Source: a virus. From it: a stretch of DNA of 62,768 bases. Shown in pieces: positions 1 through 61,415 of the stretch (the first letter of the stretch is position 1; the number at the start of each line of letters is the position of its first letter). The translations under genes and the position numbers were made by a program. The stretch lies in the IMG/VR virus record IMGVR_UViG_3300033233_000038, positions 1 to 62,768 of that record, one strand, 5' to 3'. The notes beneath the pieces were generated by a model. That model ran no database searches. It was not told where the DNA came from and saw only the letters and a program-made list of their open reading frames with translations.

Positions 1-587
1 GAACTGCTTGAGCTCGATGAACGGCAAGAGCTGCTGGAACTGCTTGAGCTTCGTGAGCTGCTTGAAGAACTAGACCTGCTTGAACTGCTTGAGCTTGATG
101 AACGACAAGAGCTGCTGGAGCTGCTTGAGCTTCGTGAGCTGCTGGAAGAACTAGACCTGCTTGAACTGCTTGAGCTTGATGAACGACAAGAGCTGCTGGA
201 GCTGCTTGAGCTTCGTGAGCTGCTGGAAGAACTAGACCTGCTCGAACTGCTTGAGCTTCGTGAGCTGCTAGAAGAACTAGACCTGCTTGAACTGCTTGAA
301 GAACTAGAACTTCTTGAGCTTGATGAACTGCTTGAACTTCGTGAACTGCTGGAAGAACTTTGTATACTTGAACTACTTGAAGAACTAGAACTTCTTGAGC
401 TTGATGAACTGCTTGAGCTCGATGAACGGCAAGAGCTGCTGGAACTGCTTGAGCTTCGTGAGCTGCTTGAAGAACTAGACCTGCTTGAACTGCTTGAGCT
501 TGATGAACGACAAGAGCTGCTGGAGCTGCTTGAGCTGCTTGAGCTTCGTGAGCTGCTGGAAGAACTAGAAGAACTAGACGATGATGT
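1..587 (-). repeat. Tandem serine-codon repeats in fibre gene (left part)
   Basis: Minus-strand codons are almost all Ser, mixing AGY and TCN, broken by Arg (CGA, AGG) or Cys-Arg (TGT CGT). Much of it follows an 81-base, 27-codon unit in which Arg, Arg and Cys-Arg sit about 8-10 residues apart. The tract continues at the right end of the window (about 61860..62768). Other reading frames stay open because the DNA is repetitive. Confidence 0.9.
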
Positions 588-1784
588 TGGTGCTATATAG
601 CATTGAACACCTACTGTACTTGCTCCTACACTTGGGGTACTTGAAGGATTGTGTTGAATAGCAAGAAGTTTACCAGCTGTCGGTGCGTAAGAAAATCCAG
701 AAGCACTATCTGTTGTTTCAAGATTTGAAAGAGTAACAGTAACTGTAGAATTGCCGTCAGTTTCTTCATTAACGGTATAAATACTAGAGTCAACAGCATT
801 ATTATTAAATGGAGCAACTGCCTGCCAGACATATATTGCTTGAATAGTAGTTGCTTCAGTAACTTGTCTGCGACTCATATCGCTTGCGGCATTTAACCAC
901 AATAAACCCACTTCACCAGAACAAAAAGCAGCATATTGAATAACAGAAGCACTTGGTGCATCTTCTGTATGCACCATAATAGGATATTGACCTGTTGTTG
1001 TAGCAAGCAAAACTACAGAAACTTTAACAGGAACAGATGCGCTATTTGCCGATACTGTTTGAAAATCTATAAGATTACCAGCGGTTACGGCGGCAGTATT
1101 AGTGACATCTCTCAAACTTAGACCAGAATCACTATTAAATAACACTGTCATATTACCAGGCGAACCAACAGTAGCGGCACCTAAACGCATATTAACTGTT
1201 AATGTCTGTGTGCCTGTCAACGCAGAATCAATATACGCTGCTAATTTCTTTAGCGTGCCAGCCATAGGTACTACTTGATGAGAAACAGCATCTGATGCGC
1301 CTAAAAGACCAACACCCATAGTAGATAAATATTGTGTATCATTAGCAGTAACAGCATTTACCCCACTCCCTCCCAATAGAATACATTCATCCGCTATGTC
1401 GGGTGAGAAAATAGTACAAAAAGTAGCTGAAGCTGCCGCAGGAGTCCCGGAAATAGTGCATCGGATACAGACTAAATCCCCAGGCACAACATCAACAGAA
1501 CCAGTAGCCGCCGCGTCGACTACTCCACTGCCCATAGTTACAGTGAGATAATTATTAGCGCCAACCATCAAATCGAATATGTATGAACCACCTGCGCCAG
1601 GGTCAACATCTAAATGAATCCGAAGGCTGGTAAACAAACCATCCGTAGGGATGACTTGTTGCTTATTCAACTGAGTAGCGCTCCAAAGAGCAAGACCCAT
1701 CACTTGATTGTATTCGGCAGCGCCTGTAGTTAGAACATCTCCACCGTTAGAACCATGAATCAGTTGTTTAGTTGTGTTGGCCAT
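1..1784 (-). CDS. Poly-serine tail fibre, N-terminal part (gene completes at 61735..62768)
   Basis: ATG at 1784 directly abuts the stop codon of the glycosyltransferase-like gene upstream. Residues 1 to about 397 form an Ala, Gly, Thr and Val rich, probably beta-structured domain that I cannot assign to a family. From about residue 398 the protein is poly-Ser with periodic Arg and Cys-Arg, and runs off the left edge. With the circle closed the product is 896 residues: about 395 of N-terminal domain, about 460 of Ser-rich stalk and a short unrelated C-terminus. Its place between the glycosylation cassette and the terminase genes, in the late operon, supports a virion surface role. Fibre function is inferred from size, repeats and context, not from a recognised domain. 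It could also be a head fibre. Confidence 0.65.
   Translation of the reverse strand, partial: MANTTKQLIHGSNGGDVLTTGAAEYNQVMGLALWSATQLNKQQVIPTDGLFTSLRIHLDVDPGAGGSYIFDLMVGANNYLTVTMGSGVVDAAATGSVDVVPGDLVCIRCTISGTPAAASATFCTIFSPDIADECILLGGSGVNAVTANDTQYLSTMGVGLLGASDAVSHQVVPMAGTLKKLAAYIDSALTGTQTLTVNMRLGAATVGSPGNMTVLFNSDSGLSLRDVTNTAAVTAGNLIDFQTVSANSASVPVKVSVVLLATTTGQYPIMVHTEDAPSASVIQYAAFCSGEVGLLWLNAASDMSRRQVTEATTIQAIYVWQAVAPFNNNAVDSSIYTVNEETDGNSTVTVTLSNLETTDSASGFSYAPTAGKLLAIQHNPSSTPSVGASTVGVQCYIAPTSSSSSSSSSSSSRSSSSSSSSSSSCRSSSSSSSSRSSSSSSSRSSSSSSSSCRSSSSSSSSSSRSSSSSSSSSIQSSSSSSRSSSSSSSSRSSSSSSSSSRSSSSSSSRSSSSSSRSSSSSSSRSSSSSSSSCRSSSSSSSSRSSSSSSSRSSSSSSSSCRSSSSSSSSRSSSSSSSRSSSSSSSSCRSSSSSS
244..370. 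repeat. Terminal direct repeat, left copy (identical to 62642..62768)
   Basis: These 127 bases are identical to the last 127 bases of the window; the match breaks at 243 (c here, t at 62641). The copy ends with the otherwise rare Ile-Gln codon pair in the poly-Ser tract, so it is not just any pair of serine repeats. Collapsing one copy keeps the fibre gene in frame (1784 + 1034 - 127 = 2691 bases, 897 codons). An exact 127-base end overlap is what a de Bruijn assembler with k=127 leaves on a circular contig, so I read it as circle closure rather than a biological terminal repeat. Bases 1-243 are then a further part of the repeat tract. Confidence 0.75.
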
Positions 1785-2729
1785 TTAATCTTTTGCCCAC
1801 CAATTTTTAAGTATCTCTATATCTTTCATCTCCCAATATTCTTTAATTCTATTATATTCATCACCCATAAATCTAGGATCAAAATATTGCGGCTCTGGAG
1901 GTATTCCTTTATATCGGTAAGCATAATTATGTTCACCATGGATATGCCGAAAACCTATCGTTTTATACCAAAAACCAACGCCGGGCTTATGCAACTGTTC
2001 ATTATAAGGAGGCTCAATAATAACCTGCTTTAATCCTAAATCCCTTACCGCCACAGCAAGCCGGCCTTCCGTATTGCCGAAGTCTTGTGTAGATTTTTCG
2101 TATTCCTCAAAAGGCACCACATGATCTACCATATGCTTGGCAATCTTGAAAAAAGCGGAAGATCGCATTAAAAGCCCTGCAGTTCCTATCTCTCGTTCTA
2201 ATGCTGGGCCTGAACTCATAATATCGGCATCCCCTAAAGTTTCTAGTAAAATTGGGAAATCTTCTGGCTTTTCTATGATACAATCCCCGTTTATGCAGTA
2301 TACATATTCAAAATTTAAAGCAAATCCAGCTGCTATTCTTAAAAGCCACATAAATGGATACGAAACGCCGCCCCAGCTTTGCCAATGCCCCATAAAAAAA
2401 CTGTCCATCATCTCCATCTGATCTTTAGCCGGCATCCAACGTTCCCAATCATACTTTAGTTCTTTAGGATCAAAATAATTATCATAAGCAACGGCTATCC
2501 AATATCCTAATGGCAAATGCGCCTTAAGTGCACCAGTCAAATAGCAACGCCCCGCCGGATGAGATATGAGAAGAATTAAAACTGGTTTTTTTATCTTTAT
2601 CGCCCAAGCATCATTCGCCATGTAACAATCAACAACGTATTTACGAGTTGCTAATTCTGCTTCCCATTCTGCATCAGGTATTTCTAAATATCTTCCCGAA
2701 CGAATAAAATCTTCTCTAGTTACCCCCAT
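1785..2729 (-). CDS. Glycosyltransferase-like protein, copy B
   Basis: Paralogue of the gene just upstream (2716..3789). Both carry a conserved block reading NGDCI(I/L)EKPE about 10-20 residues before LGDAD(I/L)MS, as expected for a GT-A type nucleotide-sugar binding site with NGD in place of a DxD motif. I chose ATG 2729 (314 residues) over the upstream ATGs because AAAGGAG lies 7 bases before it. It overlaps the previous gene by 14 bases, so translation is probably coupled. Cytoplasmic transferase, acceptor unknown; it is the last gene before the poly-Ser fibre. The glycosyltransferase call rests on fold-like motifs and neighbours and is moderately sure. Confidence 0.6.
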   Translation of the reverse strand: MGVTREDFIRSGRYLEIPDAEWEAELATRKYVVDCYMANDAWAIKIKKPVLILLISHPAGRCYLTGALKAHLPLGYWIAVAYDNYFDPKELKYDWERWMPAKDQMEMMDSFFMGHWQSWGGVSYPFMWLLRIAAGFALNFEYVYCINGDCIIEKPEDFPILLETLGDADIMSSGPALEREIGTAGLLMRSSAFFKIAKHMVDHVVPFEEYEKSTQDFGNTEGRLAVAVRDLGLKQVIIEPPYNEQLHKPGVGFWYKTIGFRHIHGEHNYAYRYKGIPPEPQYFDPRFMGDEYNRIKEYWEMKDIEILKNWWAKD

Positions 2730-3789
2730 AGATGGGCTCCTTTCCATAATGTTCAAGCGAATAATATAATCTATTGTACCAAGAATCCTCTCCCCTGTCC
2801 CACCATTGATATAAATATCTCCTATCCCCTGTTTTATAATACATCCCTAATGTAACTCTATCTCCCGGGTCTATATAACTATAATCTTTATAATCATCTA
2901 AAAATTCCTTTGGCAATGGCTCCAATGCATTATTTTCTCTATATTCTTGTTCAGCATATAAATTACGGAATCCTATCACCTCTTTAAATGTAGAAGGAAC
3001 AGATTCCCTGCAATAATAATCAATAGAACCATCCAATAAACTAATGGGCTGTTGAGGTGCATGTTTGACTTTAAGTTTTAATGCAGTTATCGCTTCCCCT
3101 AATAAATTTTCTGGGCTAAAAGAACCAATGACCGGAACAACAAATTGTTCTGTCATGTAATTAATTATTTTGTTAAAAGCATCTACTTTATATAAAACAT
3201 CGGCAGTATGTATAGTCATGCCTTCTGCACTTTGCCCTGACATTAAATCAGCATCTCCTAAAATCTCTGCTAATTTGTCCATGTTCTCAGGTTTTTCTAA
3301 AATACAATCTCCGTTAGTGCCATACACATATTTAATATTAGGGAATAAATTTATAATGCCTTGCGCATATTTAACATTCCATAACCAACCTGTCCTTTTA
3401 TCCGCGTCAAAAGTTTTGTGTTTTACCACAATACTATGCGCCATTAAATAATGAATAGAACGAAGCAACTTTGAATCGAAAGCAGTCTCATCACTTAAAC
3501 TCGACTTATCAAAAGCGTAAAATGGATTATCATAAGCTACGATTACATATTTTCCGGTAAGACGATAATTTAATAATGTTTTCTTTAACCATCTAAGATG
3601 CCCATACCAGCTTGTTACTATAATTGCCATATCAGTATCAAAAGGAAAACTATTGACATTAAAAACACAATCATACCAATTTGGATCTCCATTTACTCTC
3701 CTTTGCTCATCATCCCTAAATTCTGGATTGGCAAACGGCTTAAGCAACGCTAGTTTATCTTTTAAATCATTTAATTCTCTTGTGGGCAT
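2716..3789 (-). CDS. Glycosyltransferase-like protein, copy A
   Basis: A 357-residue protein sharing the NGDCILEKPE and LGDADLMS blocks and general layout with the next gene, so the two arose by duplication. N-terminal residues (IIVTSWYGHLRWLKKTLLNY) resemble the first strand-helix unit of GT-A enzymes, where the nucleotide binds. No membrane segment is visible, so it should act in the cytoplasm on an activated sugar. Its start overlaps the end of the preceding gene by 19 bases. The acceptor is unknown; virion proteins or host glycan are both possible. Confidence 0.6.
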   Translation of the reverse strand: MPTRELNDLKDKLALLKPFANPEFRDDEQRRVNGDPNWYDCVFNVNSFPFDTDMAIIVTSWYGHLRWLKKTLLNYRLTGKYVIVAYDNPFYAFDKSSLSDETAFDSKLLRSIHYLMAHSIVVKHKTFDADKRTGWLWNVKYAQGIINLFPNIKYVYGTNGDCILEKPENMDKLAEILGDADLMSGQSAEGMTIHTADVLYKVDAFNKIINYMTEQFVVPVIGSFSPENLLGEAITALKLKVKHAPQQPISLLDGSIDYYCRESVPSTFKEVIGFRNLYAEQEYRENNALEPLPKEFLDDYKDYSYIDPGDRVTLGMYYKTGDRRYLYQWWDRGEDSWYNRLYYSLEHYGKEPIYGGN

Positions 3790-4298
3790 GCGCCTCCATC
3801 AAAACCTTTTACAATAACAAAACCGTTTAAATCCTGTTTGTCATAAAACTCGACTGTTAACTCGTATCTAACTCTGCATATAAATTCTAAAAAAGTGACG
3901 TAACCGGTATTACTTTCATTAAGAATAATCCTATCCCACTTCTTAATGAAACTCATATAAAGCAAGAGTTCACCCCTGCCGACTTTATCTATAAAAAGAA
4001 AATTGGATAATTTATCTAAAGCATCAATTTCAGCTAATTTATCTTCTACAATAGATACTACCTTTTCTCTGGAGAATTTAGTCTTCTTTAATCTGTTCGG
4101 TGGCAGATCTCTCAAGTACATATCCCTGTTTATCATATATTTTAAAACTTCAATATGAAACCAATCTTCACACCAGATGGGGCGTTCTCTCCCTTCGATA
4201 AAAATAGACTTCTGTTCTCCGTATGATAAAGGAGCATCAATGATATATCCTACTAAGTTTTGTATCTTAAGAAGTTCTACCGGATTAAATTCTCTCAC
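3771..4298 (-). CDS. Hypothetical protein of the glycosylation cassette
   Basis: About 175 residues, no family recognised. Start taken as GTG 4298: GGAGG lies 8 bases upstream and the GTGA overlaps the stop codon of the previous methyltransferase gene, a normal coupling arrangement. An upstream GTG at 4307 is also in frame but too near the ribosome site. The protein is mixed charge, without signal peptide or membrane segment. Tight packing between a methyltransferase and two glycosyltransferase-like genes suggests a part in the same sugar pathway. Confidence 0.6.
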   Translation of the reverse strand: MREFNPVELLKIQNLVGYIIDAPLSYGEQKSIFIEGRERPIWCEDWFHIEVLKYMINRDMYLRDLPPNRLKKTKFSREKVVSIVEDKLAEIDALDKLSNFLFIDKVGRGELLLYMSFIKKWDRIILNESNTGYVTFLEFICRVRYELTVEFYDKQDLNGFVIVKGFDGGACPQEN

Positions 4299-4888
4299 AG
4301 CCACCACCTCCGCATCAAAAGTGAGACGCTAGGAAAACGCCAATATGTCCCAACAATATAATATTTTTCTATGATAGGATTGGTATCTATTTCATTTTTA
4401 ATGGAAGGCATGTTATACTTAACCATCCATTCAATGTTATCCCTTTCTTCACTACCGCCTTCGAATAAAATAATACAGCGTGGCGCTATTTTAGAATGCC
4501 ATAATTCTATGAATTTTTTTAATACATCTCCGGTATTGCTGATATCTACATGCATAAAATCAATTTTTGCATCTCCATAATTTTTATAAACTTCATAAGC
4601 GTTGCCTCTTTGAAGATTGACAAACTGCCCTAGTCCCTTGCTATCAAGCATTTCTTGAACTTCCTGTTGACTGCCGTGCTTAAAGGAATAATCATCAAAT
4701 AAATCATACGCGTCAAATGGAGGAACCCAATTATATGCATCTTTTATCATCTTTATAGCTTCTGCTATATGATACGTGCTATAGCCGTCTAACACACCCA
4801 GCTCAACAATCCTCGAAGGTTTAAAAGCTAAAACATTTGCTTTAAGAATTCTACCGCAGTCATTTTCGATATAAGAAGACCTCATCAT
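4295..4888 (-). CDS. Class I SAM-dependent methyltransferase
   Basis: 197 residues. The SAM-binding motif I is visible as VELGVLDGYST near residues 28-38, followed by DAYDLFDDYS and a motif-IV-like DFMHVDIS. This pattern resembles the Methyltransf_24 group often found in surface-polysaccharide loci. It overlaps the upstream small gene by an ATGA. It probably methylates a sugar or glycan; the substrate cannot be read from sequence. The arginine and tryptophan rich end (MRRWWL) coincides with the ribosome site of the next gene. Confidence 0.65.
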   Translation of the reverse strand: MMRSSYIENDCGRILKANVLAFKPSRIVELGVLDGYSTYHIAEAIKMIKDAYNWVPPFDAYDLFDDYSFKHGSQQEVQEMLDSKGLGQFVNLQRGNAYEVYKNYGDAKIDFMHVDISNTGDVLKKFIELWHSKIAPRCIILFEGGSEERDNIEWMVKYNMPSIKNEIDTNPIIEKYYIVGTYWRFPSVSLLMRRWWL

Positions 4889-5142
4889 TTATCTCTCCCA
4901 ACATTAAGAAAATTAATCTTTTTGGATTGCCTGTTAAAACCTTCCAAATATTCATTGATCTCTTCTCTAACATCAGAACGTTCTTTACTCAAAGTTTTAA
5001 TTTTAATGGCTAATTTTCCGACAGATAGGATGTCTTTTTTTCTATGAGCTTCGGATACCATCTCTTCTGTGTGCCAGATTTTTATATTCAAGATAGATAA
5101 CCTATCTATCCACTCCCCTATTGATATAATGTTTTTATTCAT
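4885..5142 (-). CDS. Small DUF6165-like protein
   Basis: 85 residues beginning IISIGEWIDRLSILNIKIWH, which recalls the GELIDKLTILEIK signature of the DUF6165 family seen beside glycosyltransferases in polysaccharide loci. The rest is predicted helical and charged, probably coiled coil. It overlaps both neighbours by 4 bases (ATGA). Function is unknown; a partner of one of the transferases is a reasonable guess. Confidence 0.5.
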   Translation of the reverse strand: MNKNIISIGEWIDRLSILNIKIWHTEEMVSEAHRKKDILSVGKLAIKIKTLSKERSDVREEINEYLEGFNRQSKKINFLNVGRDK

Positions 5143-6380
5143 AAAATTTTTACTTCAGGTAGTGGTACGATTAATTTCGTACCATTTCTTATAAGTTCGC
5201 TTTCCCGCTTCGCAAAATCAACAGCGAAACCATAAGGAAGGATCAATAAATAATCTGGCTTGACTTTTCGCATAGCAGATTCATCCTTAATTGGAATATC
5301 TGTCCCAATCATATATTTTCCTATCTTGAATGGATTAACATCAGCTACGGCTTCTACCAGTTGGCTATCAATACCACAATATTGAAGAATAGTATTTCCT
5401 TTTGTCGAGGCCCCATATGCCCAGATTTTCTTGTTTTCTGATTTTAACTTAGTCAGGAGCTGTAATAAATCATCTTTTGTCTTTTGAATACGATTATTAA
5501 AATCCTGATAAGTCTTTATATCGAATAAATTAAATAAATCTTCCTGCTCAATAAGGCTTAACAATCTTTGATTGCCTATATAGATAGTCTTTAAAAAATC
5601 CTTTTTTCTTACAAAAATACGGAAACTGCCTCCATAGATATCATTCAAAGAAACGTTGAAAATTTCGAGGCCAGCCTTACCCAAAATCCACTGAAGCACA
5701 CTAATGGTATAATAATAAATATGTTCGTGAACAATGTTATCATACATGTTAGTTTTAAGCATTGATGGAAGATATGCCATCTGGATAATCCAAATACCTT
5801 CATCATCTAAGCACTCAAAAATATCTCTACAAAAACTTACTGGATCAATGATATGATAAAACATAGCAATACTGAAAATAAGTTTTGCCTTTTTAGAAAC
5901 ATTGGCCTCAACCATTTCACAGGAAAATGGACTTTTAATAAACTTAGCACCTGCAAAAACAGGTTCTATATTTTCCGCAGGATCAATATTTAAGAGCTCA
6001 AAACCATTACCTGCAAAAAAAGAAAGCAAAGTTCCATCATTCCCGCCAATATCTAAAATCAAATCTCCCCTATTTAAACAACTTAAGATTTTTCCTTCTT
6101 TAGCTACCTCTTTCAATGCCTGTCTCATATACTCGTTAGAAGAACTGGTATAAGGATAAATTTTATACATCTCACTTAAATCTGGCTGAGAATCAAGTTG
6201 AAGAACTCCGCAATTTTTTTCTGAATTTCCTTTTATACAAAGTTTAAGTTCTAAAGGATATTTTTTCAGCTTGTGCCTATAATTTAAAGAATCAGGGAAA
6301 ATAGATGAAAGATATTGTTCCCCTAAATTAACACAAGAAATAAGGTCAGGATTATTGCATATTCGGCATTTTTTAAGCAT
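5139..6380 (-). CDS. Sugar C-methyltransferase (Methyltransf_13/_11/_14 architecture)
   Basis: 413 residues with the three-part layout of NDP-hexose C-methyltransferases such as the TylC3 group. An N-terminal zinc-type Cys cluster (C5, C8, C48, C57) comes first. A Rossmann methyltransferase core with LDIGGNDGTLL near residue 108 follows. A C-terminal domain has WAYGASTKGNT near residue 322. These enzymes add a methyl group from SAM to a keto-sugar carbon, making branched deoxysugars, in the cytoplasm. It overlaps the next gene by 4 bases and the upstream epimerase by 8. Family assignment is fairly secure; the exact sugar is not. Confidence 0.8.
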   Translation of the reverse strand: MLKKCRICNNPDLISCVNLGEQYLSSIFPDSLNYRHKLKKYPLELKLCIKGNSEKNCGVLQLDSQPDLSEMYKIYPYTSSSNEYMRQALKEVAKEGKILSCLNRGDLILDIGGNDGTLLSFFAGNGFELLNIDPAENIEPVFAGAKFIKSPFSCEMVEANVSKKAKLIFSIAMFYHIIDPVSFCRDIFECLDDEGIWIIQMAYLPSMLKTNMYDNIVHEHIYYYTISVLQWILGKAGLEIFNVSLNDIYGGSFRIFVRKKDFLKTIYIGNQRLLSLIEQEDLFNLFDIKTYQDFNNRIQKTKDDLLQLLTKLKSENKKIWAYGASTKGNTILQYCGIDSQLVEAVADVNPFKIGKYMIGTDIPIKDESAMRKVKPDYLLILPYGFAVDFAKRESELIRNGTKLIVPLPEVKIL

Positions 6381-7101
6381 GATTTTTTATTTTTTCTTCC
6401 ATAAAAGATAATACCAGCCGCGCATCCGGAAAATCCATCTCAGGATTTTCTATTTCTTGATTTTCAATTCTTCCTTCAAAATTAACTTTTATTTTAAAAT
6501 AATCAGCTATCTCTTGAAGGCTTATTGTATTTTTAGCGCCAAGTTCAATAATGCCAGTCCTGTCTAGATGATTAACGATCCAATTAGTTACGAAATCAAG
6601 AGAAGAAAAAGCATATCTGCTTTTTCCGCTTACATAAGCTTTCCCACTTAATATATCTATCAAAACTCCTCTGGAAAGACCCTCCCCATAAGTAGATGTC
6701 AAACGATAAATTAAATAATTCGAACTTTTTTTGCATAGTTCTTCAGCTAATAATTTATTTCTTCCATAAACAGAAGCAGGATCATAACGGGCAGATACGC
6801 TGCTAATCTGAATAAATTTATTATAATGCCATCCGGTTATCAAATCATTAGTCTTCTCAACAGTTTCGACATAATCTTGTTCAGGATTTTGATTAGCCCA
6901 ATAGCGCTTTGAATTCATAGCGCAATTAATTATAATATTGTAATTAGCCTTACGCAAAAAATCATATTTATCCCGCGTTACCGGAATAACAGCTATTAAT
7001 TCTTTAGGATTTATTGGTTCTTTACAATTCAAAGAATATAACGCACTGCATAATGCGCTACCAATATATCCATTTGCTCCAATAACAGCTATCGAAATCA
7101 T
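6373..7101 (-). CDS. NAD(P)-dependent nucleotide-sugar epimerase/reductase
   Basis: Short extended-SDR protein (242 residues). GANGYIG at residues 8-14 is the dinucleotide-binding loop, and Y112-x3-K116 with nearby SS form the catalytic site. Start is ATG 7101, one base after the cupin stop codon, with GGAG 7 bases upstream; the longer in-frame extension overlaps the cupin gene and lacks a ribosome site. It would reduce or epimerise a keto-sugar after the dehydratase and ketoisomerase steps. It lacks some length at the C-terminus compared with typical 300-residue members, where substrate is bound. Confidence 0.75.
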   Translation of the reverse strand: MISIAVIGANGYIGSALCSALYSLNCKEPINPKELIAVIPVTRDKYDFLRKANYNIIINCAMNSKRYWANQNPEQDYVETVEKTNDLITGWHYNKFIQISSVSARYDPASVYGRNKLLAEELCKKSSNYLIYRLTSTYGEGLSRGVLIDILSGKAYVSGKSRYAFSSLDFVTNWIVNHLDRTGIIELGAKNTISLQEIADYFKIKVNFEGRIENQEIENPEMDFPDARLVLSFMEEKIKNHA

Positions 7102-7102
7102 A

Positions 7103-7486
7103 CTAACACTCCATTTGGACAATAGGCGGATTACACTCATCCCACTTTTTCGAAAGCATTGCGACAGCAGTAACAGGAGTAATTGCATAAAAAGTATGAA
7201 TAACTCCGATAGGATTTCTCACACACACACCTTTACTCATATGAATAACAATTTTTTCTTTAGTATCTTCGTGATCCTTACTTATCATTACACCGGAACC
7301 TTCCACCACCAAAAAATATTCATTAAACTCAGGATGATAGTGATTCCCTCTAGTCTTACCCGGCAAAAAATAAAGCATATTAAATTCTACGATAGTATCT
7401 TCTGGAAACCACGTAAATATACCACCACGACCGTCTTTCACTGTATCTAAATTACAATACGGTAATAAAATCTCTTGTTTATTCAT
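7103..7486 (-). CDS. Cupin, sugar 3,4-ketoisomerase/epimerase-like
   Basis: 127-residue single cupin domain with metal or active-site pattern H49-x-H51...E56 and a later H97 in the second half-motif. Cupins of this size in sugar operons include FdtA-type dTDP-4-keto-6-deoxyglucose 3,4-ketoisomerases and RmlC-like epimerases. With a 4,6-dehydratase and a DegT aminotransferase in the same operon, a ketoisomerase feeding a 3-amino-sugar is the most economical reading. Overlaps the upstream gene by 4 bases. Which isomerisation it performs is inference. Confidence 0.65.
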   Translation of the reverse strand: MNKQEILLPYCNLDTVKDGRGGIFTWFPEDTIVEFNMLYFLPGKTRGNHYHPEFNEYFLVVEGSGVMISKDHEDTKEKIVIHMSKGVCVRNPIGVIHTFYAITPVTAVAMLSKKWDECNPPIVQMEC

Positions 7487-8271
7487 TTGTTCAATTTCTC
7501 AGGCATTGGAATTCCTAAATACCAATAAAATATTGCATCACATAAGCCTACATGCCCATGATCTGATAACGGATACTGAGGCCGCCCAACATAAATATCT
7601 ACCACATAAGGTATCTTGAGCCCTTCAGCTATTGTTTGCCCTATAGACATATTTCCAACGAATAAATCTGCGCCAGCAATTACTCTCGCAAATTCATAAA
7701 TATCATCAGCTTTGTGTCTGGGTATTTTTAAATAGGGGCGGTCTCTTTGAAATAATTCCCAATCCCAATCATTACCCATAAATACACAATCATTTTCTAC
7801 TTTCTTTAAAAGTTTCCAATCAACCGTTGACCCCGGAAATCTTTGAGGGCCTGTATCTTGAATGACTATCTTCGCTATTTTATTAGGAGGAATATTAAAA
7901 AGATAGAGTTGATTAAAATTAAATTCTAGATTGAACGCTTTTAAATGCATCCTTGCTACATGTAATTCATTAGCGCCCCTAAATTTATCTAAATCGTGAG
8001 TTGCAATATTGTCATTCTTCATCTGCCGCCACTCTATATCCGATACTTTTATTATCTTTAAATATGGCTGAGCTTCCAACAATCTTCCTATCCCTCCATA
8101 CTGGTCATTTCTCAAATAATAAGTTCCTCCTCCAAGAGCAATGCATGCAGGTAGTCCGAAAATCATATCCCCATAAGAACCTGAATGTATGAAAGTATTA
8201 AGAGCAATAGTTCTGTTTTCCCATCCAGTTTTTGTTTGAATACCATCTGTATATCTTTTGAATCCATTCAT
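7483..8271 (-). CDS. GT9-like glycosyltransferase
   Basis: 262 residues. The N-terminal SGSYGDMIFGLPAC resembles the G-D-x-(I/L) loop of ADP-heptose type GT9 enzymes. The C-terminal block ADLFVGNMSIGQTIAEGLKIPYV matches the conserved donor-binding segment of that GT-B family. It is shorter than the usual 320-350 residues, so one Rossmann half may be reduced. GGAG sits 7 bases before ATG 8271, and that ribosome site lies inside the end of the broken endonuclease VII gene. Donor and acceptor unknown. Confidence 0.65.
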   Translation of the reverse strand: MNGFKRYTDGIQTKTGWENRTIALNTFIHSGSYGDMIFGLPACIALGGGTYYLRNDQYGGIGRLLEAQPYLKIIKVSDIEWRQMKNDNIATHDLDKFRGANELHVARMHLKAFNLEFNFNQLYLFNIPPNKIAKIVIQDTGPQRFPGSTVDWKLLKKVENDCVFMGNDWDWELFQRDRPYLKIPRHKADDIYEFARVIAGADLFVGNMSIGQTIAEGLKIPYVVDIYVGRPQYPLSDHGHVGLCDAIFYWYLGIPMPEKLNK

Positions 8272-8274
8272 AAT

Positions 8275-8676
8275 TTATCTCCATTTTTCTAGATAATCAG
8301 CAGCCATTCTAAGCAATAAAGGATTTTCTTTAAAATGTCCTATGCCCCAATTACAAGACCTACATAAAATTGCTCGAGGTTTTTTAGTTTCATGATTATG
8401 ATCTAAGCATCTTTCTCTTTTGTCATGTAATGAGGAACAACAAATTGCACATTTGTAAGATTGAGTTATAAGTGTTCTTTGATATTATTCAAAAGTTATC
8501 CCATATCGAAATTTCAATTTTGAATTTCTTTTTTCTTCTGGGTGTTCTTTTGACCATTTTCCAGCACATCTTTTACACCAATAATTAAGACCGTCTTTAC
8601 TATGTTTGCCTTTATGAAATTCACTTAGTTCTTTTTTTTCCTTACAATGTGAACAAATTTTCATAACATTATTCAA
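8275..8676 (-). pseudogene. Endonuclease VII-like gene interrupted by an in-frame TAA
   Basis: The open part 8485..8676 encodes 63 residues with paired cysteines (CSHCKEKKELSEF, WCKRCAGKW) and ends ...YGITFE then TAA. The same frame continues without another stop to 8275 and encodes YKCAICCSS, CLDHNHETKKPRAILCRSCN and WGIGHF. That is the zinc and His-rich catalytic signature of recombination endonuclease VII (T4 gp49 family). A single CAA or GAA to TAA change would explain it. Neighbouring genes, and this one at 8275, use TAA as a true stop, so code reassignment is unlikely. It sits inside the sugar cassette, where freestanding endonucleases often insert. Confidence 0.75.
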
Positions 8677-11401
8677 TAATTTCTGCTATCCATCTTTGCG
8701 GAATAAACTCAGAAATAGCGCGCTCTCTTGCTGCTTGGCCTTTTTTCTTTAATTCCTCAAAACTAAGATTCTTCACAATTTCTGCAAACTGTTTTTTCTT
8801 ATCGCAGAGCCATCCACACTCAGGCGTTACTCTATCTTTTAATCCACCCCAATTATCACCTAAAATTGGTAAACCACTAGCAAGAGCTTCTAAAGCAACT
8901 CTTGGCCCCATATCCATATACCCTTGCGGAAGCGAATACCAGAATAAATTACCTTTCGATAGAAAGTCAGCAATGACTTCTGGTTTGTCAGTGCGAGGAT
9001 ATTTTTTAAATATATCATTTTCATTAACAAAGGAAGGCCCGGGAAGCATTGCAAAGAAAACATCTTTCCTTACATTAATAATTTGATTTATTTCATTGCT
9101 AAAAAATTTACTGAATTTCGTATCCCCCTGAGAGCTGTGCCTAACTAATCTTAAACTATCATTATAATTAGGCTGCACTTTTAAAAATTCATCTAATTCC
9201 GTACAAGGCGGTAATACTTTCGTTTTTACATTTGGTAATACTTTTAACAATTCTTTTTCTTGAGTTGAATTTAAAAACATATACTTATCCCAACATTTTG
9301 TCCATTCAATTTCGCCAACGCCACCGCGCCGATAATTCAGCATCATTATTTTCTTATCAGCATTAAGCGTTGAAAACATCTCTGCAAGTTCTGGCTTAGA
9401 AAATTCCCACACAAAATCGTCTGCATAAACAAACAACACATCACATGACTCATGCAGGGTTTCATAATCAAGAGTTACTTTTACATCTTTTAAAGTTGTA
9501 TCAAGGCATTGCCGGAATTCTCTGCTACCGATAGATTTTCTGAATGGAATGAACTCTACTTTGTGGCCGGCTTTAAGAAGATATTTCATTATCGTAGTAA
9601 CGCTTCGCGCGCAACCACCCCACCCCCTTGCTGTGCTTACTATTTTTATTGTTTTACTCGTAAGATTTTTATCGCAATAGCAAGATGGCACAATCAAACA
9701 ATCATCTTCTTTTTCTATAAGTTTTTCTCCAATCCATCCGTGACAACGGTGGCCCCCTTTAATAGGGCCTTCAAAATTATTTTTAATATACTTCTCTTGC
9801 CAGTTACGTTCATTCTGGCGGCCTGCATCGTGAATTATTATAATGTCCGCTAATTCAGAAGCAATCTTAGTTGAAAATTCTCTCGATGCACCCCCCGAAG
9901 GGCCATCCACAAAAGCCATATCGAAATGTCCAGAAATCTCAAGATTTTTACCATCCCATAACTTTATGTCTAAATCAGGCTTAATCCCTTTTATCTTTTT
10001 AATCCATCCCTCATTTGTTTCAAAAGTAACTACTTTCACTAAATCACTTAAAAGCAAAGTTGAAAGCCCCGCGCCAAACTCCAAAACAGTCCTGACATTG
10101 TATCTTTGTATTGTCGTTCGCAAGAAATCCCAATCCCTGTCAGTAAGACTTCCTCCACCAAATGGTATGTTATATTTATTCTCTATCTCGGCAATATTCC
10201 TTACTACCGGAGCTATTGGAATGGATACTGACGCATTTTTTACAATATTCTTGAATTGTTTTGGTTTATCTGATTGGACTCCTTTTTTCAACCGGCCGCC
10301 AAGATAATATTGATTCAATGCAAAAGATATATCTTTAGGATAAATAATATCAACACATTTAGGGACTTTTCTATCTAAGATATGTTCTTTCTTCTCATCA
10401 ATAACTAAATTAGGGCATGTCTTAATATCGCAGTGCCAACACGCATTGAGCGCACATGGAAGGCACCCATCGGTGGCAAGATATTGATGACCCGGATAGC
10501 GCGTAAATGCTACCGGCTCACGGGCACCAGCAATAACTATCGCCGGCTTGTATAACGCACCAGAAAGATGCATGTGAAAACTGACGAGGCCTATCGATCC
10601 CTCCGCGTTTAAGAAAAGTTTATACAGATCACGTATGCCGGTAAGCTTCTCTTGCGTCTTACCTATATAATCTACAACGTTAGACCCCTGTAATTTCGGA
10701 TGTTGGTCTTCTTTTGCGCCTAACTGATAAAATAAGGTATCAGGATTCTGACTGACAAATTCCTGCCACCTTTCAAATGGATACATCTTGCATCCCCATC
10801 CCTTTTCACCACCGATGACAATGAGCCAATAAGGCTCTTTCGTTACCGGCGGCGCGTTGAACTCCTCTTCTGTCAGCCATATATCAGGCCGGGACTCACC
10901 TTGGGGGATATGCACGTTAAGCGCATCTTCTATGGAGATACGGAAGGCGTTAGCGAAGTGCCAATCAAGGCGATTGGAGGAATTGGTGAGCTTCCCCGGC
11001 CCTATCTTTATCGTATTCTGTTCAGTCGGTATTAGAGTCCTGTCAATATAAGGGTTGTTATCCCAAATATGAGCTGCAATGGAAATGACGTTAACTCTTA
11101 CATCAGGAAATGTTTTCTTGAAATCCCTTATTCCGCAAGTAAACATCAACATATCACCTAATCGCTGCCGGTTATGAAAGACTAGTTCTTTGCGATCCTT
11201 TATGGTAGAGATAACTTCTTTAAAATTATCTGATAACTGAGAATGATTTAGAAGTTCATTGACAAATTCTTTCATTAAACTTTTGTTTTCAATAGGCCCG
11301 TGAACATGAATAGAATTATTTACGCCTTTAAAAATAGCGACATGCTCTGCTACTTCTTCGTTGAAATTAGTTAATTCTTTATTACATATTTTACAAATCA
11401 T
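8669..11401 (-). CDS. Glycosyltransferase GT9 - methyltransferase - glycosyltransferase GT4 fusion
   Basis: About 910 residues, three enzymes in one chain. Residues 1-50 are a small Cys/His domain (CKIC...HVHGP) related to the separate 23412..23645 protein. Residues about 70-385 are GT9-like (RLGDMLMFTCGIRDF, then GLVSFHMHLSGALYKP). Residues about 410-560 are a SAM-type domain (VLEFGAGLSTLLLSD, DMAFVDGPSGG). Residues about 600-910 are GT-B family 4-like (RGWGGCARSV, EALASGLPILGDNWGG). Start is ATG 11401 with AGGAGG 6 bases upstream, overlapping the aminotransferase stop as TGATG. Fusion suggests sequential steps on one acceptor. Substrates are unknown. Confidence 0.75.
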   Translation of the reverse strand: MICKICNKELTNFNEEVAEHVAIFKGVNNSIHVHGPIENKSLMKEFVNELLNHSQLSDNFKEVISTIKDRKELVFHNRQRLGDMLMFTCGIRDFKKTFPDVRVNVISIAAHIWDNNPYIDRTLIPTEQNTIKIGPGKLTNSSNRLDWHFANAFRISIEDALNVHIPQGESRPDIWLTEEEFNAPPVTKEPYWLIVIGGEKGWGCKMYPFERWQEFVSQNPDTLFYQLGAKEDQHPKLQGSNVVDYIGKTQEKLTGIRDLYKLFLNAEGSIGLVSFHMHLSGALYKPAIVIAGAREPVAFTRYPGHQYLATDGCLPCALNACWHCDIKTCPNLVIDEKKEHILDRKVPKCVDIIYPKDISFALNQYYLGGRLKKGVQSDKPKQFKNIVKNASVSIPIAPVVRNIAEIENKYNIPFGGGSLTDRDWDFLRTTIQRYNVRTVLEFGAGLSTLLLSDLVKVVTFETNEGWIKKIKGIKPDLDIKLWDGKNLEISGHFDMAFVDGPSGGASREFSTKIASELADIIIIHDAGRQNERNWQEKYIKNNFEGPIKGGHRCHGWIGEKLIEKEDDCLIVPSCYCDKNLTSKTIKIVSTARGWGGCARSVTTIMKYLLKAGHKVEFIPFRKSIGSREFRQCLDTTLKDVKVTLDYETLHESCDVLFVYADDFVWEFSKPELAEMFSTLNADKKIMMLNYRRGGVGEIEWTKCWDKYMFLNSTQEKELLKVLPNVKTKVLPPCTELDEFLKVQPNYNDSLRLVRHSSQGDTKFSKFFSNEINQIINVRKDVFFAMLPGPSFVNENDIFKKYPRTDKPEVIADFLSKGNLFWYSLPQGYMDMGPRVALEALASGLPILGDNWGGLKDRVTPECGWLCDKKKQFAEIVKNLSFEELKKKGQAARERAISEFIPQRWIAEIIE

Positions 11402-12462
11402 CACCAACCTCCTTTTATGGTCTCACTTATATAGTGAGCATCTTCTTCACTGACATGCATACCTATAGGAATAGATATATATTTGTCTTCGATTGAATTT
11501 AATACCGGCAAGTCTTCTCTTTTTCTACCAAAAAGTTTATAAATATCATTACGCACTTGGACTAAATTTGTTTCAATCCCCGCGTCAAAAAGTTTTCTTG
11601 CAAAATCATCTCTTCTTTCAACAAGAACTGTGGCTAACCAGCATACATTTGTTTCTCCATCTATAAGTTTTATTCCAGATAAGTCTAGGAGATTTATTTT
11701 ATAGATATTAAATATTTTCTTACGATGACGCACTATCGAACGATAATGAGAAAGCCCTGCTAATCCCATTGTGGCCGCAATATCATTCATATGCCTTTTA
11801 TATCCAAGCATCTCTATATCAAAACACATCATTCTCGTTTTGTAAGATTCCCAACTATTCTTTGACTCTATTTCTCTATCTATACCAAACCATCTTAAAA
11901 GTTTTGCCTTCTGGTATGCTTCTTTGTTATTAACCACTAACATGCCGCCATCCCCCGTAGTAATATGTTTTATGGCTTGGAAAGAACATGCAGTAAGATC
12001 TCCGGTAAAGATCCCTAGAGCCTGACACGCATCTGAAACGACCGGAATATGAAAAACTCCTATATTAGAACACACCCCTCCTAGATGCACCTGTATGATT
12101 GCTTTTGTTTTATCAGTAATTTTTGACTTGATGTCTAAAGCGTCGATGCACAGAGTGCGCTCATTGATATCAGCCCAAACAATTTTTACTTTTCGCGCAA
12201 GCAATGGTATATTCGTGGCCGCACAGGTCAAAGGTGTTGTTATCACCTCATCACCTTCTTTTAACCCTATCAGATCATACGCGGTCTCAAGCGCAGATGT
12301 CCCTGAATTCATACTGACTGCATATCGAACATTGAATAATTTAGAAAATTCTTTTTCGAATTCATCTACTTTATCTCCCTGAGTTATGCATCCGGAGCTT
12401 AAAGTTTTTGTTAAGTTTGCTATAACGCCTTCAGGGATATATGGACTAAAAAGTTTTATCAT
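11401..12462 (-). CDS. DegT/DnrJ/EryC1 sugar aminotransferase (PLP)
   Basis: Counting from ATG 12462 the protein has 353 residues. The PLP lysine is K165 in SFQAIKHITTGDGGML. The NSGTSAL loop at about 52-58 binds the cofactor phosphate and VVSDACQ holds the Asp that contacts the pyridine ring. This family transfers an amino group from glutamate to a keto-sugar nucleotide. Together with the upstream dehydratase and the cupin it would yield an amino-dideoxyhexose. ATG 12462 overlaps the upstream stop as TGATG; a TTG at 12477 is in frame but less likely. Confidence 0.85.
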   Translation of the reverse strand: MIKLFSPYIPEGVIANLTKTLSSGCITQGDKVDEFEKEFSKLFNVRYAVSMNSGTSALETAYDLIGLKEGDEVITTPLTCAATNIPLLARKVKIVWADINERTLCIDALDIKSKITDKTKAIIQVHLGGVCSNIGVFHIPVVSDACQALGIFTGDLTACSFQAIKHITTGDGGMLVVNNKEAYQKAKLLRWFGIDREIESKNSWESYKTRMMCFDIEMLGYKRHMNDIAATMGLAGLSHYRSIVRHRKKIFNIYKINLLDLSGIKLIDGETNVCWLATVLVERRDDFARKLFDAGIETNLVQVRNDIYKLFGRKREDLPVLNSIEDKYISIPIGMHVSEEDAHYISETIKGGW

Positions 12463-13445
12463 CACCATTCCAACCAAGATAAATTATTCAAATACCACTT
12501 AATTGTTTTGACTAAGCTTTCTTCAAAAGTTTTTGGAATGTGCCAACCAAGATGTTTCATTTTTTCAGCACACAAACTATACCGGAGATCATGCCCAGGA
12601 CGGCTTGAATGGAAATCAATCATTTCATACTTAACTGGTTTACCAATTATCTGAGCGATGAACTTCGCCATCTCAAGATTATCAACTTCTTTCTCTCCAA
12701 CAATATTATACTTATCCCTATTTTCTGATTTATCCAACAAAAATAAAATAGCTGCGGCTACGTTCCGACAATGAATATAGAATCGAGAACCAGCTTTTGT
12801 CCTCGTAGAATCAGAATGGATAAAGACAGTTTCATCGTGTAATACTTTTTTAATTACGGAAGGGATGTATTTTTCCGGATGCTGGCGTTCTCCAAAGCAA
12901 TTCATCGTGTGTGTAATTATTATAGGTAGCTTATAGGTATTGGCATAAGCAAGGCACAATTCCTCCCCCCCTGCTTTTGAAGCAGAATATGGATTTGTAG
13001 AGTTATACCTGTCCCACTCCTTATAATCAGTCCCCGCTGGTGCAGGGCCAAAAACTTCATCCGTTGAAAAGTATACAAATTTTTTCAGATTTTTTAAGCA
13101 GCGCGCGAAATTCAACATATGCATAGTGCCCACGACATTCGTAATTACAAACGGCTCGGGGTCGCTTATTGAGTTATCGACATGTGTCTCCGCGCCCATA
13201 TGCACGATATAATCAATATCCCCAATTTCTTTTGTTAAGCCGCAAGGAATAATTTGTGTAAAATCCGCGGAAAAAAGCTTAAGCCGCGGATTATCGAAAC
13301 ACCCTGCGTCTCTTAACCGATGGAACCCATTCGAGGCATAAGTAAGTTTATCCAAGACAACAACTTCCCAATCGGTGTTAAGTAATACTGACTCAACAAA
13401 GTGATGGCCGATAAATCCTGCACCTCCAGTTACTAATATTTTCAT
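12462..13445 (-). CDS. NDP-hexose 4,6-dehydratase (RmlB-like)
   Basis: 327 residues, the normal length. GGAGFIG at residues 7-13 binds NAD; T128-D129-E130 within STDEVFG are the dehydratase catalytic residues; Y153-x3-K157 completes the SDR site. The enzyme converts a nucleotide-activated glucose to the 4-keto-6-deoxy sugar in the cytoplasm, the branch point for rare sugars. No RmlA-type nucleotidyltransferase is in the genome, so the activated hexose must come from the host. ATGA overlap with the upstream gene. First committed enzyme of the cassette. Confidence 0.88.
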   Translation of the reverse strand: MKILVTGGAGFIGHHFVESVLLNTDWEVVVLDKLTYASNGFHRLRDAGCFDNPRLKLFSADFTQIIPCGLTKEIGDIDYIVHMGAETHVDNSISDPEPFVITNVVGTMHMLNFARCLKNLKKFVYFSTDEVFGPAPAGTDYKEWDRYNSTNPYSASKAGGEELCLAYANTYKLPIIITHTMNCFGERQHPEKYIPSVIKKVLHDETVFIHSDSTRTKAGSRFYIHCRNVAAAILFLLDKSENRDKYNIVGEKEVDNLEMAKFIAQIIGKPVKYEMIDFHSSRPGHDLRYSLCAEKMKHLGWHIPKTFEESLVKTIKWYLNNLSWLEW

Positions 13446-13867
13446 AGATATCGTATTACCCCATCGCTGAGCTTATACGCCCCCGAGGCATGCATCTTCG
13501 AAAGTGAATTGTTGATGGTGATGGATGTGTTTTTCTCGCCGCCGATAGTATCAGAATATAACAATGAATAATCAATATACCACGGATTTGGATCTTTCCC
13601 CGATGAATCATTCGTCTTGACAATATCAATGACGCTGATTTTTTTTATCCCATGGTTCATGTCATGCCGCTCAAGGATCCTATCCAGCCGGCCGTCCTTG
13701 AAGTCAAACAGGTCATGTTTCAAGATCCTGATCTGTTCCTGCAGCGCAGCCTTCTCAACCTCAAGTTTCGCTATGCGCTCGAATGTCTGTTGCACTATTG
13801 ACTTGATTGTCTTTGACTGTTTTTCTTTCATGCCTTGGTGCATTTTTTCCAGTTTTTCATTCTCCAT
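13442..13867 (-). CDS. Hypothetical coiled-coil protein
   Basis: Start taken as ATG 13867 (141 residues), 6 bases after AAAGGG and overlapping the previous gene by 11 bases; a longer in-frame form begins at 13897. The first half is a strongly charged heptad-like helix (residues about 15-70); the second half is probably beta. The C-terminal part (SKMHASGAYKLSDGVIRYL) looks like a compact domain. No family recognised. It lies between the chaperonin gene and the sugar genes in the late operon. Confidence 0.55.
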   Translation of the reverse strand: MENEKLEKMHQGMKEKQSKTIKSIVQQTFERIAKLEVEKAALQEQIRILKHDLFDFKDGRLDRILERHDMNHGIKKISVIDIVKTNDSSGKDPNPWYIDYSLLYSDTIGGEKNTSITINNSLSKMHASGAYKLSDGVIRYL

Positions 13868-14063
13868 TGTTCGCCCTTTCTTCAAATGAGATATCATAAT
13901 ATTTGCCTAATTTAAACGTATCAGCAAACATCTTATCTTTCACTGTCATGAACATCTGCACTGACGTTTCCTTGTTGTCAGTGATAATGAACTCTATCGT
14001 GGTTTCGCCTGAGGCATATTCTTTCTTTGACAAGACAAATAGCGGCTTATCGAGATATACCAT
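13857..14063 (-). CDS. Hypothetical small protein
   Basis: 68 residues from ATG 14063, which overlaps the groES stop as TGATG and is preceded by AAGGGGGTG. Alternating hydrophobic and polar residues suggest a small beta protein. No family recognised. Coupled to groES by overlap. Confidence 0.55.
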   Translation of the reverse strand: MVYLDKPLFVLSKKEYASGETTIEFIITDNKETSVQMFMTVKDKMFADTFKLGKYYDISFEERANNGE

Positions 14064-44162: not shown

Positions 44163-44163
44163 A

Positions 44164-45051: not shown

Positions 45052-45693
45052 CTAAGCGCCAGAACTGGAAGAACTGGAACTGCATGATGAGCTTGAAGAG
45101 CTAGAATTACCTAATGGCGGATTATAGGTATTCCATCGAACTTCTTTCAGAGTCATCCCTGTATGCAACAGTTGATATGCGGCTAACTCCCGCGTTAATT
45201 CATCTTCAGAGAAACGCATTTTAAAATAATATTCATAAGAAACGAGGATCTGCCCTGATGAAGGTATAGAGCTAAAAGTTATAAATGATTGTTCGGTAAC
45301 AAAATTATTGCTTAAGGTGTAATTTGAATTTGATACACCCCCAACAGTACAGGAATGATTTGCTGCTGTATCGACAGGGAAATTATCCAATAAAAATTGT
45401 GCGGTAACTCCATTGGCATCGCCTGCGTCTTCGGCGGAAGCCTGATATTCAGTCAATATTTTAACCAAAAAATAATCATAAGCACCTTTCCGCGCAAGAA
45501 AAAAATCCCATATCGTATCCATAACTGCCTGAGAGAGAAACTTGCACGTAAGTTTATATTCACGCAGCCCATGATCCCATAAAGCATCCCTGTATTCTTT
45601 GCCGCTTTCAGATTCAGTTATATTCGTTTTAAAAAATACTTTTTCTTCAAGCCCAAACTCAGGGGTTAAAGTTAATATATGCTCGTAGCTCAT
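45052..45693 (-). CDS. DUF2460 tail protein with a poly-Ser tail
   Basis: 213 residues. The core (ESGKEYRDALWDHGLREYKL, SYEYYFKMRFSEDELTRELA) matches the DUF2460 family, the GTA-like protein between tape measure and DUF2163. After NPPLGN the last 17 residues are Ser with one Cys, ending GA. The Ser tract is short compared with the other virion proteins. Ends in TAG, in the same frame as the next gene. Confidence 0.8.
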   Translation of the reverse strand: MSYEHILTLTPEFGLEEKVFFKTNITESESGKEYRDALWDHGLREYKLTCKFLSQAVMDTIWDFFLARKGAYDYFLVKILTEYQASAEDAGDANGVTAQFLLDNFPVDTAANHSCTVGGVSNSNYTLSNNFVTEQSFITFSSIPSSGQILVSYEYYFKMRFSEDELTRELAAYQLLHTGMTLKEVRWNTYNPPLGNSSSSSSSCSSSSSSSGA

Positions 45694-52041: not shown

Positions 52042-52347
52042 TTACTTAGTGCTGGAACTAGAAGAACTCGAACTCGATGAAGATACTGACTTAGAAGAAG
52101 AACTAGAGCTCGAAGAACTTGATGACGATGAACGGCATGACGATGAGCTAGAACTGCTTGAACTGGAATAATCTGTTAAGCCATCTTTGATTGCTGAAGT
52201 TCCAATCAAAATTACCTTCTTGCGGTACGTCATAATGATATTGCAATCCTCTTTTCTGAAGTTATATGCACCGCAAAGAATTCCTTCACAAGTTATCCCA
52301 TTCCCAACGTTATTTTTAAACGGACATCGGTAAGTAGGTGCTGACAT
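52042..52347 (-). CDS. Small Cys-rich protein with a poly-Ser tail
   Basis: 101 residues. Residues 1-59 form a small Cys domain (C8, C20, C25, C35 in YRCPFKNNVGNGITCEGILC, DCNII). Residues 60-101 are Ser with one Cys-Arg, KSV and final TK. Same tail ending (STK) as the next protein upstream. Probably a virion surface protein encoded between decoration and connector genes; function unknown. Confidence 0.65.
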   Translation of the reverse strand: MSAPTYRCPFKNNVGNGITCEGILCGAYNFRKEDCNIIMTYRKKVILIGTSAIKDGLTDYSSSSSSSSSSCRSSSSSSSSSSSSSKSVSSSSSSSSSSSTK

Positions 52348-60940: not shown

Positions 60941-61415
60941 CAGAAATCTCCTCTGCACTTAACATTTTTCGTTCTCTTTCAGATTGTTTTACTCCACCCA
61001 TAAGAAAAACTTCCAAACGCATTAACTTATCAAGATGATTAATGTTTGGCTTATTCAACAAATTCCCTTGTTCTATTTGTTCACTAAATAAATTTACTGC
61101 CTTACGAATAGTCTCAACCATTTTCATCCTGCGTTCTTCAAGGAGCACATTATACTTTTCTGAAATCTTATCTTGGAATATTGTAAGACGATAATGAAGT
61201 GGCTTAATACCTCTATTTTCATCACCCTCTGAAAAGTACCGCTTCGCTGTCTCAAAACATACATTCGCTTTCTTTGCTGCTTTTGTTATGGGATCGCCAT
61301 TCGCTAAATAAGTAAATAACTCATCAACTTTTTCTTGTGGTAATGAATTCCTGAATCCATACGGTTTTTTTGGCTTCGGTTTTTTTAAATTCTCTAACGA
61401 TTTTGGATTAATCAT
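60918..61415 (-). CDS. Terminase small subunit
   Basis: 165 residues from ATG 61415 (TGATG overlap). Helix-turn-helix part LANGDPITKAAKKANVCFET then a coiled coil (DKISEKYNVLLEERRMKMVE). The usual DNA-recognition partner of TerL, and encoded directly before it. Confidence 0.75.
   Translation of the reverse strand: MINPKSLENLKKPKPKKPYGFRNSLPQEKVDELFTYLANGDPITKAAKKANVCFETAKRYFSEGDENRGIKPLHYRLTIFQDKISEKYNVLLEERRMKMVETIRKAVNLFSEQIEQGNLLNKPNINHLDKLMRLEVFLMGGVKQSERERKMLSAEEISDGDNQEG

Follow-up and report, generated by a model that had tools for sequence, protein, structure and literature searches.

A phage sugar cassette linked to poly-serine virion proteins as a candidate O-glycosylation system

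The IMG/VR virus record IMGVR_UViG_3300033233_000038 is a linear sequence of 62,768 bases from a tailed phage, and its full length was analysed here (hereafter, the window). Its minus strand carries, at positions 1785-13445, a 12-gene operon with genes for deoxysugar synthesis, methylation and glycosyl transfer, which runs into the gene of a poly-Ser fibre. What is the target of this sugar cassette? A reading of the sequence alone had proposed that the sugar is placed on the poly-Ser tracts of the virion, with host O-antigen change and DNA modification as alternatives. In the present study, we examined the tracts and the cassette in the window, in its relatives and in unrelated phages. We consider it very likely, on sequence evidence, that the operon forms a self-contained set for O-glycosylation in the cytosol, with the poly-Ser tails on virion proteins of the same phage as its acceptors. 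Placement of the sugar on poly-Ser is supported by the cassettes of the relatives, by reverse tests with three glycosyltransferase families, and by a swap between Ser and Thr in a sister clade.

Linkage of poly-Ser tracts and glycosyltransferase genes

Scans with the capsid protein gave at least 31 and then at least 54 loci, plus a contig (G042) in a bacterial metagenome-assembled genome, with capsids 46-77% identical to that of the window. In the clade with capsids about 54-77% identical, poly-Ser is found on the same virion proteins as in the window. In the sister clade (capsids about 46-54%), the same proteins have Ser/Thr tracts of the TTSTTSTSTT type, some of them shifted from the C- to the N-terminus. 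Such a replacement of Ser by Thr with the hydroxyl group kept is expected if the tracts are O-glycan acceptors. A hydroxyl tail was present on the tail-tube homologues read to the C-terminus, while the capsid and terminase of the relatives were never tailed and the portal almost never. In three Ser/Thr-clade contigs (L112, L113 and L114, of G034-G036), the DUF2460 and 51308-type proteins have N-terminal tails, not C-terminal ones.

The sugar genes of the window are mostly not conserved in the relatives. The slot that they occupy, with the GroES-like gene on one side and the fibre on the other, contains glycosyltransferases and sugar methyltransferases in four relatives (G001, G006, G015 and G042). 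In G025, a Ser/Thr phage, the end of the cassette adjoins the tract-bearing fibre across the contig join. In each of the six genomes that are near-complete, namely, the window and these five, the cassette lies beside a fibre with tracts. As the slot is filled by differing sugar genes, the acceptor tails appear to persist while the glycan composition varies fast. Poly-Ser virion proteins without a glycosyl cassette, which had been named as an observation contrary to the proposal, were not found in any near-complete relative. Neither tracts nor recognisable cassette homologues were present in G221, a phage at greater distance (tail tube 31%). At the fibre position of G038, the open reading frame (ORF; L109:1-663) consists of Asp/Tyr/Phe repeats (DYFDFDYFDKYDEYD), not Ser/Thr. 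In the 59.9-kb G052 (L422-L424), which lacks the capsid of the lineage, a glycosyltransferase-like cluster at 45-54 kb lies beside Ser/Thr-tract genes at 57.5-59 kb.

The association was also tested in reverse, with the glycosyltransferases as queries; all counts from the IMG/VR scans are among the matches listed. For the GT9-like domain of the 912-residue protein (marker alignment A9), 12 loci were new beyond the known relatives, and every one of the 12 contigs had poly-Ser genes, in most cases on a virion backbone unrelated to that of the window. A poly-Ser gene lay within 10 kb of the A9 locus in 11 of them, most flanking the cassette on both sides; at the twelfth (G240, from the window's own lineage), it lay just past 10 kb. 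The background for poly-Ser genes was 0 of 120 loci (1,060 kb). The pair of GT-A-like enzymes gave 25 loci, 19 with a tract within 10 kb; when the exceptions were read as whole contigs, three more had tracts, giving 22 of 23 informative contigs, a set that leaves out two contigs shorter than 5 kb. The other cassette type has a GT8-like family, and all six new loci found with it were accompanied by tracts. Each of the three families thus predicts poly-Ser genes on contigs of unrelated phages. Exact-pattern scans returned many unrelated tracts among the matches listed.

The A9 domain was present in every poly-Ser relative with a fully sampled cassette, and none was found in the Ser/Thr clade. 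Its absence from G025 fits the idea of a Ser-priming enzyme like TibC (see below), as a single case. Strong A9 matches occurred in 0 of 27 control and 0 of 18 Thr-rich contigs, and in three contigs with long poly-Ser (119, 274 and 548 kb). Long poly-Ser proteins were seen in contigs of 270-550 kb (L125, L168, L174 and L217), with a GT9-like domain in L125 and L217.

Among the non-lineage contigs searched, the capsid profile of the window matched 0 of 14, and A9 contigs carried other capsid or portal families (phrog_334 and phrog_156 in G234, phrog_9953 in G236, phrog_146 in G231). The order poly-Ser, (dehydratase), DegT, 912-residue protein, methyltransferase, two GT-A enzymes, poly-Ser was largely kept in several unrelated backbones. 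As far as sequence can tell, the cassette is linked to the tracts, is conserved with them and moves with them, and the two look like one mobile enzyme-acceptor module. The residues that interrupt the tracts are predominantly Cys and Arg with the closest cassettes, and Phe and Leu with most of the other type. A rule that these residues always follow the cassette type was rejected; it was true where GT912 is at least 49% identical, and failed for G042 and distant cassettes.

Enzymes and acceptors in the window

All the sugar and methyltransferase genes named in the sequence-only reading were present on the minus strand with family matches (Table 1). The dehydratase scored 289 bits against TIGR01181, under the cut-off of 365. 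The nearest solved chains to the aminotransferase were 4xau, 4zwv and CalS13 (4zas), the cupin matched Cap5F (1e-5), and the C-methyltransferase matched the D-mycarose 3-C-methyltransferase 4rv9 (E 1e-47) and TcaB9 (9e-37). Rhamnosyl O-methyltransferase (RMNT_CmcI) genes related to 4295-4888 are present in other cassettes. From these families, the product of the cassette is likely an amino and/or C-methyl deoxysugar. An amino-deoxysugar route had been expected, with dTDP-Fuc3N as an example; the enzymes are closer to those of 4-amino and 3-C-methyl deoxysugars and give dTDP-Fuc3N no specific support. The sugar dehydratase of G025 is split by an insert that resembles an intein and contains a LAGLIDADG domain (L054:15216-17288).

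At least four glycosyltransferase-like proteins had been counted. The assignment stands for 8669-11407, 2716-3789 and 1785-2756; 7483-8271, for which the family search gave no match, is only a possible member. PF01075 matched the GT9-like domain of the 912-residue protein in four of five homologues (best 5e-7), and RfaQ and lipopolysaccharide heptosyltransferase models matched all five members; this domain is our best candidate for the first sugar transfer to Ser. Its finger, with four invariant Cys and a CW motif, resembles the TibC iron finger in layout, with a Cys spacing different from that of TibC, which we take as a lead and not as membership. Family searches gave no match for 2716-3789 and 1785-2756. 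When the AF2 model of 2716-3789 (model confidence pLDDT 53) was searched with Foldseek, the top PDB matches were GT-A enzymes, including glycogenin, hyaluronan synthase and pneumococcal GlyE. The GT-A family (A3) was compared with the GT8-like family that the relatives carry (A4), and no homology was found. The window encodes glycosyltransferases of its own, as do phages that glycosylate their virions.

O-antigen loci typically hold deoxysugar and glycosyltransferase genes, and many phages carry serotype-conversion genes. The cassette might accordingly alter the surface polysaccharide of the host (O-antigen or capsule conversion), with poly-Ser as an unmodified flexible spacer. By hydropathy, no polytopic membrane protein was found in the window cassette, and hence no flippase, polymerase or GtrA/GtrB-like set; moreover, the cassette is built into the late virion operon, poly-Ser genes lie on both of its flanks in unrelated phages, and serotype conversion does not predict poly-Ser linkage in 12 of 12 contigs. 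We rejected this alternative as very improbable. The other one, that the glycosyltransferases act on phage DNA, recalls the known phage-encoded glycosyltransferases for hydroxymethylated bases. No dCMP hydroxymethylase, thymidylate synthase or other base-modification or base-hypermodifying gene was found among the ten non-cassette proteins scanned, and the cassette lies in the late operon, adjoining acceptor-like proteins. On the ten proteins scanned and on this position, DNA is an exceedingly improbable target, and this alternative was also rejected.

The proposed acceptors are six virion proteins. The poly-Ser fibre ORF begins at 1784 and leaves the contig at its start, and the same 81-bp repeat is found at the other contig end in the minus-strand ORF 61735-62768. 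In relatives, one gene spans the fibre position and is followed by a homologue of 61415-61717. The shared repeat and this homologue indicate that the split fibre is one gene, and the single gene of the relatives across the join indicates a break of the contig within the repeat and a nearly complete genome. Since both contig ends (1-600 and 61735-62768) lie in the same fibre gene, the genome is probably circular or circularly permuted. The joined gene has about 500 tract residues, and the first estimate of about 460 Ser-rich residues for the fibre was revised to this value. The other five tract-bearing virion proteins were found as predicted (Table 1); 53098-53448, a paralogue of 52357-53034, is without the tail. 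A model of the tail tube (pLDDT 74) matched the tubes of SH-Ab15497, P74-26 and T5 in Foldseek with the Ser tail disordered, and the tail probably points outward. The tracts of the window contain more than 30 Cys residues, mostly in Cys-Arg pairs.

The poly-Ser arrays are tandem copies of 27-126 bp units, as would be expected of selfish or slippage-driven DNA repeats with no protein function. Their Ser codons are a mixture of AGY and TCN, which no single synonymous change can interconvert. Between fibre repeat copies 27 codons apart, 182 codon pairs are identical, 70 synonymous and 29 non-synonymous; such mostly synonymous differences indicate that the protein sequence of the fibre is under selection. 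The position of the tail-tube tract is exactly conserved over deep divergence. The mixed codons, the mostly synonymous differences and the conservation at the same place in homologues exclude a chance origin of the tracts, and we give the selfish-repeat explanation practically no credence. In the fibres of G001, G006 and G014, uninterrupted Ser runs are mostly 3n+2 long (8, 11, 14, 17, 20, 29 and 38), which suggests growth by a 9-bp unit or a structural period of three residues.

Several observations weigh against glycosylation of poly-Ser by these enzymes. One cassette contig (G242) had no clear tract, and the counts are not fully independent because the contigs that share a cassette are related through it. 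The TibC family model TIGR04414 matched one of five members of the GT9-like domain (E 0.033), and a sequence search of the PDB with this domain did not retrieve TibC. The GT-A assignment depends on the low-confidence model described above. Finally, PF00535, a model that also fails to detect the window's own glycosyltransferases, was found in 10 of 34 contigs with Ser/Thr tracts and in 6 of 27 controls, with no enrichment. A prediction of glycosyltransferase genes from Ser/Thr-rich tracts in general is not supported; of the view that Ser tracts are O-glycan acceptors, we keep the part on near-pure poly-Ser with these enzymes and limit the claim to it.

The lack of association between generic tracts and PF00535 would also fit glycosylation of other virion proteins or sites, with poly-Ser as independent low-complexity linkers that share the late module. 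Mycobacteriophage capsids are glycosylated, with such tracts unmentioned in two reports (PMC12363180, PMC11256854). Such independence does not explain why poly-Ser is predicted by each of three glycosyltransferase families, why hydroxyl residues are retained where Thr replaces Ser, or why interruption residues track the cassette type among the closest cassettes, and we consider it unlikely.

The remaining features of the window are those of a tailed phage: terminase, portal, protease-capsid fusion, tail tube, tape measure and J-like tail protein. Gene calls were simple and ORF-based. Nearly all neighbours in the 12-gene operon overlap by 4-41 bases, and the sole intergenic gap is 8272-8668. 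Past the 13442-13897 gene and the GroES-like gene, cassette content varies among relatives. Small ORFs judged by eye to be HNH-endonuclease-like lie among the late genes (8485-8676, 43392-44171 and 49916-50761). No close relative of the phage was found in INPHARED. The only genome match to the lineage was G042, a 67-kb contig binned in a 1.9-Mb bacterial metagenome-assembled genome; three other genomes of its relatives gave weak partial matches at most.

Table 1. Cassette genes, tract-bearing proteins and adjoining features of the window
Position	Strand	Feature	Evidence or remark
1..1784	-	Poly-Ser fibre, N-terminal part	ORF exits contig start
1785..2756	-	Paralogous GT-A-like glycosyltransferase	About 26% identical to 2716-3789
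2716..3789	-	GT-A-like glycosyltransferase with NGD motif	Fold
3771..4307	-	178-residue cassette protein	Conserved across unrelated cassettes
4295..4888	-	Methyltransf_24 enzyme	Family match
4885..5142	-	85-residue protein	42% to a protein of the Ser/Thr-clade phage G025
5139..6380	-	Sugar C-methyltransferase, three-domain Methyltransf_13/23/14	PDB 4rv9
6373..7101	-	SDR sugar epimerase/reductase	PF01370 E 3e-10; start placed at internal ATG, full ORF 6373-7188
7103..7486	-	Cupin (FdtA / Cap5F C-terminal-like), putative sugar isomerase or epimerase	PF14667 E 2e-9, PF05523 E 8e-5
7483..8271	-	262-residue protein, possibly heptosyltransferase-like	15-22% to 270-280-residue proteins of relatives
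8669..11407	-	912-residue fusion: GT9/heptosyltransferase-like, methyltransferase-like middle, GT-B C-terminal domain	
10283..11200	-	GT9-like domain of 912-residue protein	Marker alignment A9
10355..10456	-	Cys finger of 912-residue protein	Invariant Cys 318, 323, 331, 351 and Trp324
11401..12477	-	DegT-family sugar aminotransferase	PF01041 E 1e-69
12462..13445	-	dTDP-glucose 4,6-dehydratase-like SDR, first step of 6-deoxysugar route	PDB best 2hun, E 6e-60
13442..13897	-	Conserved gene upstream of cassette in relatives	45-51% identity
14063-14557		GroES-like (cpn10) gene beside cassette	50-68% to relatives
39225..43028	-	J-like tail protein	Internal poly-Ser tract of about 190 residues (roughly 40190-40760)
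45052..45693	-	DUF2460 tail protein	C-terminal poly-Ser tail
48909..49931	-	Tail tube	C-terminal poly-Ser tail of about 30 residues; PF18906 E 1e-10
52042..52347	-	101-residue virion-operon protein	Poly-Ser tail
52357..53034	-	225-residue virion-operon protein	112-residue poly-Ser tail
61415..61717	-	Small gene after poly-Ser fibre in relatives	
61735..62768	-	Poly-Ser fibre, C-terminal part	ORF exits contig end; same 81-bp repeat

Comparison with known glycosylation systems

Virion glycosylation by phage-encoded enzymes is already known. The mycobacteriophages Che8, Corndog and Myrna glycosylate their virions, with the capsid and tail tube as reported targets (Freeman et al. 2023, as cited in PMC12363180 and PMC11256854; for the Corndog gene order, see PMC4351075). 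As in the window, glycosyltransferases and an O-methyltransferase lie in or near the structural operon. In contrast, homopolymeric acceptor tails are not mentioned in those texts, whereas the window phage has poly-Ser tails on six proteins as the proposed acceptors and also encodes sugar-nucleotide synthesis.

The serine-rich repeat proteins (SRRPs) of Gram-positive bacteria, which carry O-glycans on Ser/Thr, are accompanied by 2-10 co-located glycosyltransferases (PMC6973325). A Ser-rich acceptor gene beside a variable set of cytosolic glycosyltransferases is likewise found here. However, SRRPs leave the cell through the accessory Sec system (SecA2/SecY2 and Asps), whereas the acceptors here are virion proteins, several per cassette. 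Because the window cassette contains no membrane-protein genes and the acceptors are tail proteins, we did not classify it as an SRRP locus.

TibC, which together with AAH represents the bacterial autotransporter heptosyltransferases (BAHT), has an iron finger formed by Cys-339, 342, 358 and 370, and modified Ser, not Thr, in a mapped peptide (PMC4358343). The window protein shares with this family a heptosyltransferase-like GT-B catalytic domain, and its four-Cys finger resembles that of TibC in layout but not in spacing. It is too distant in sequence for membership, its domain is fused to methyltransferase-like and GT-B domains, and its donor is probably not ADP-heptose. The chlorovirus PBCV-1 likewise has sugar enzymes and glycosyltransferases of its own. 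One of its proteins, A064R, joins two glycosyltransferases to a methyltransferase (PMC7019647) and is comparable to the 912-residue protein; the PBCV-1 glycans differ in being N-linked and on the capsid of a eukaryotic virus.

Among the 102 phages that one survey of low-complexity regions took in, the longest such region had 115 residues (PMC6821194), whereas the poly-Ser tracts here reach about 500-1,100 residues. In the literature searched, we found no report of dedicated homopolymer or poly-Ser acceptor tails in phages.

Proposed mechanism and significance

From the enzyme families, host nucleoside diphosphate-glucose would be converted to an unusual amino/C-methyl deoxysugar by the 4,6-dehydratase, cupin, aminotransferase, C-methyltransferase and second SDR. 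The heptosyltransferase-like N-domain of the 912-residue protein, with its Cys finger, would probably prime Ser in the manner of TibC, after which the GT-B domain and the two GT-A enzymes may extend the chain and the methyltransferases may cap it. Both the covalent sugar on Ser and this order of enzymes are what we infer from the families and their arrangement. The glycan would cover the tail tube, tail tip, fibre and small virion proteins, and might confer, for example, solubility, protease protection, masking or adhesion.

We also favour, with some reserve, a broader proposal. Many unrelated phages, including those of the 119-548 kb contigs, may share an exchangeable system in which a cassette and a poly-Ser or Ser/Thr tail fit for almost any virion protein co-evolve, and in which a TibC-like Cys-finger enzyme would processively glycosylate homopolymeric Ser, so that tail and fibres acquire a mucin-like coat.

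So far, glycosylated proteins in phage particles have been documented in only a few isolates. Here, a single neighbourhood provides the enzymes together with an obvious acceptor, and it recurs across many unrelated, uncultured phages. The cassette offers a candidate minimal enzyme-acceptor pair, and near-pure poly-Ser with this glycosyltransferase set gives a sequence-level rule for predicting glycosylated virions. Long Ser tracts that are otherwise dismissed as low complexity would thereby gain a function, and their recurrence beside these enzymes points to a widespread, previously undescribed way of sugar-coating virus particles.

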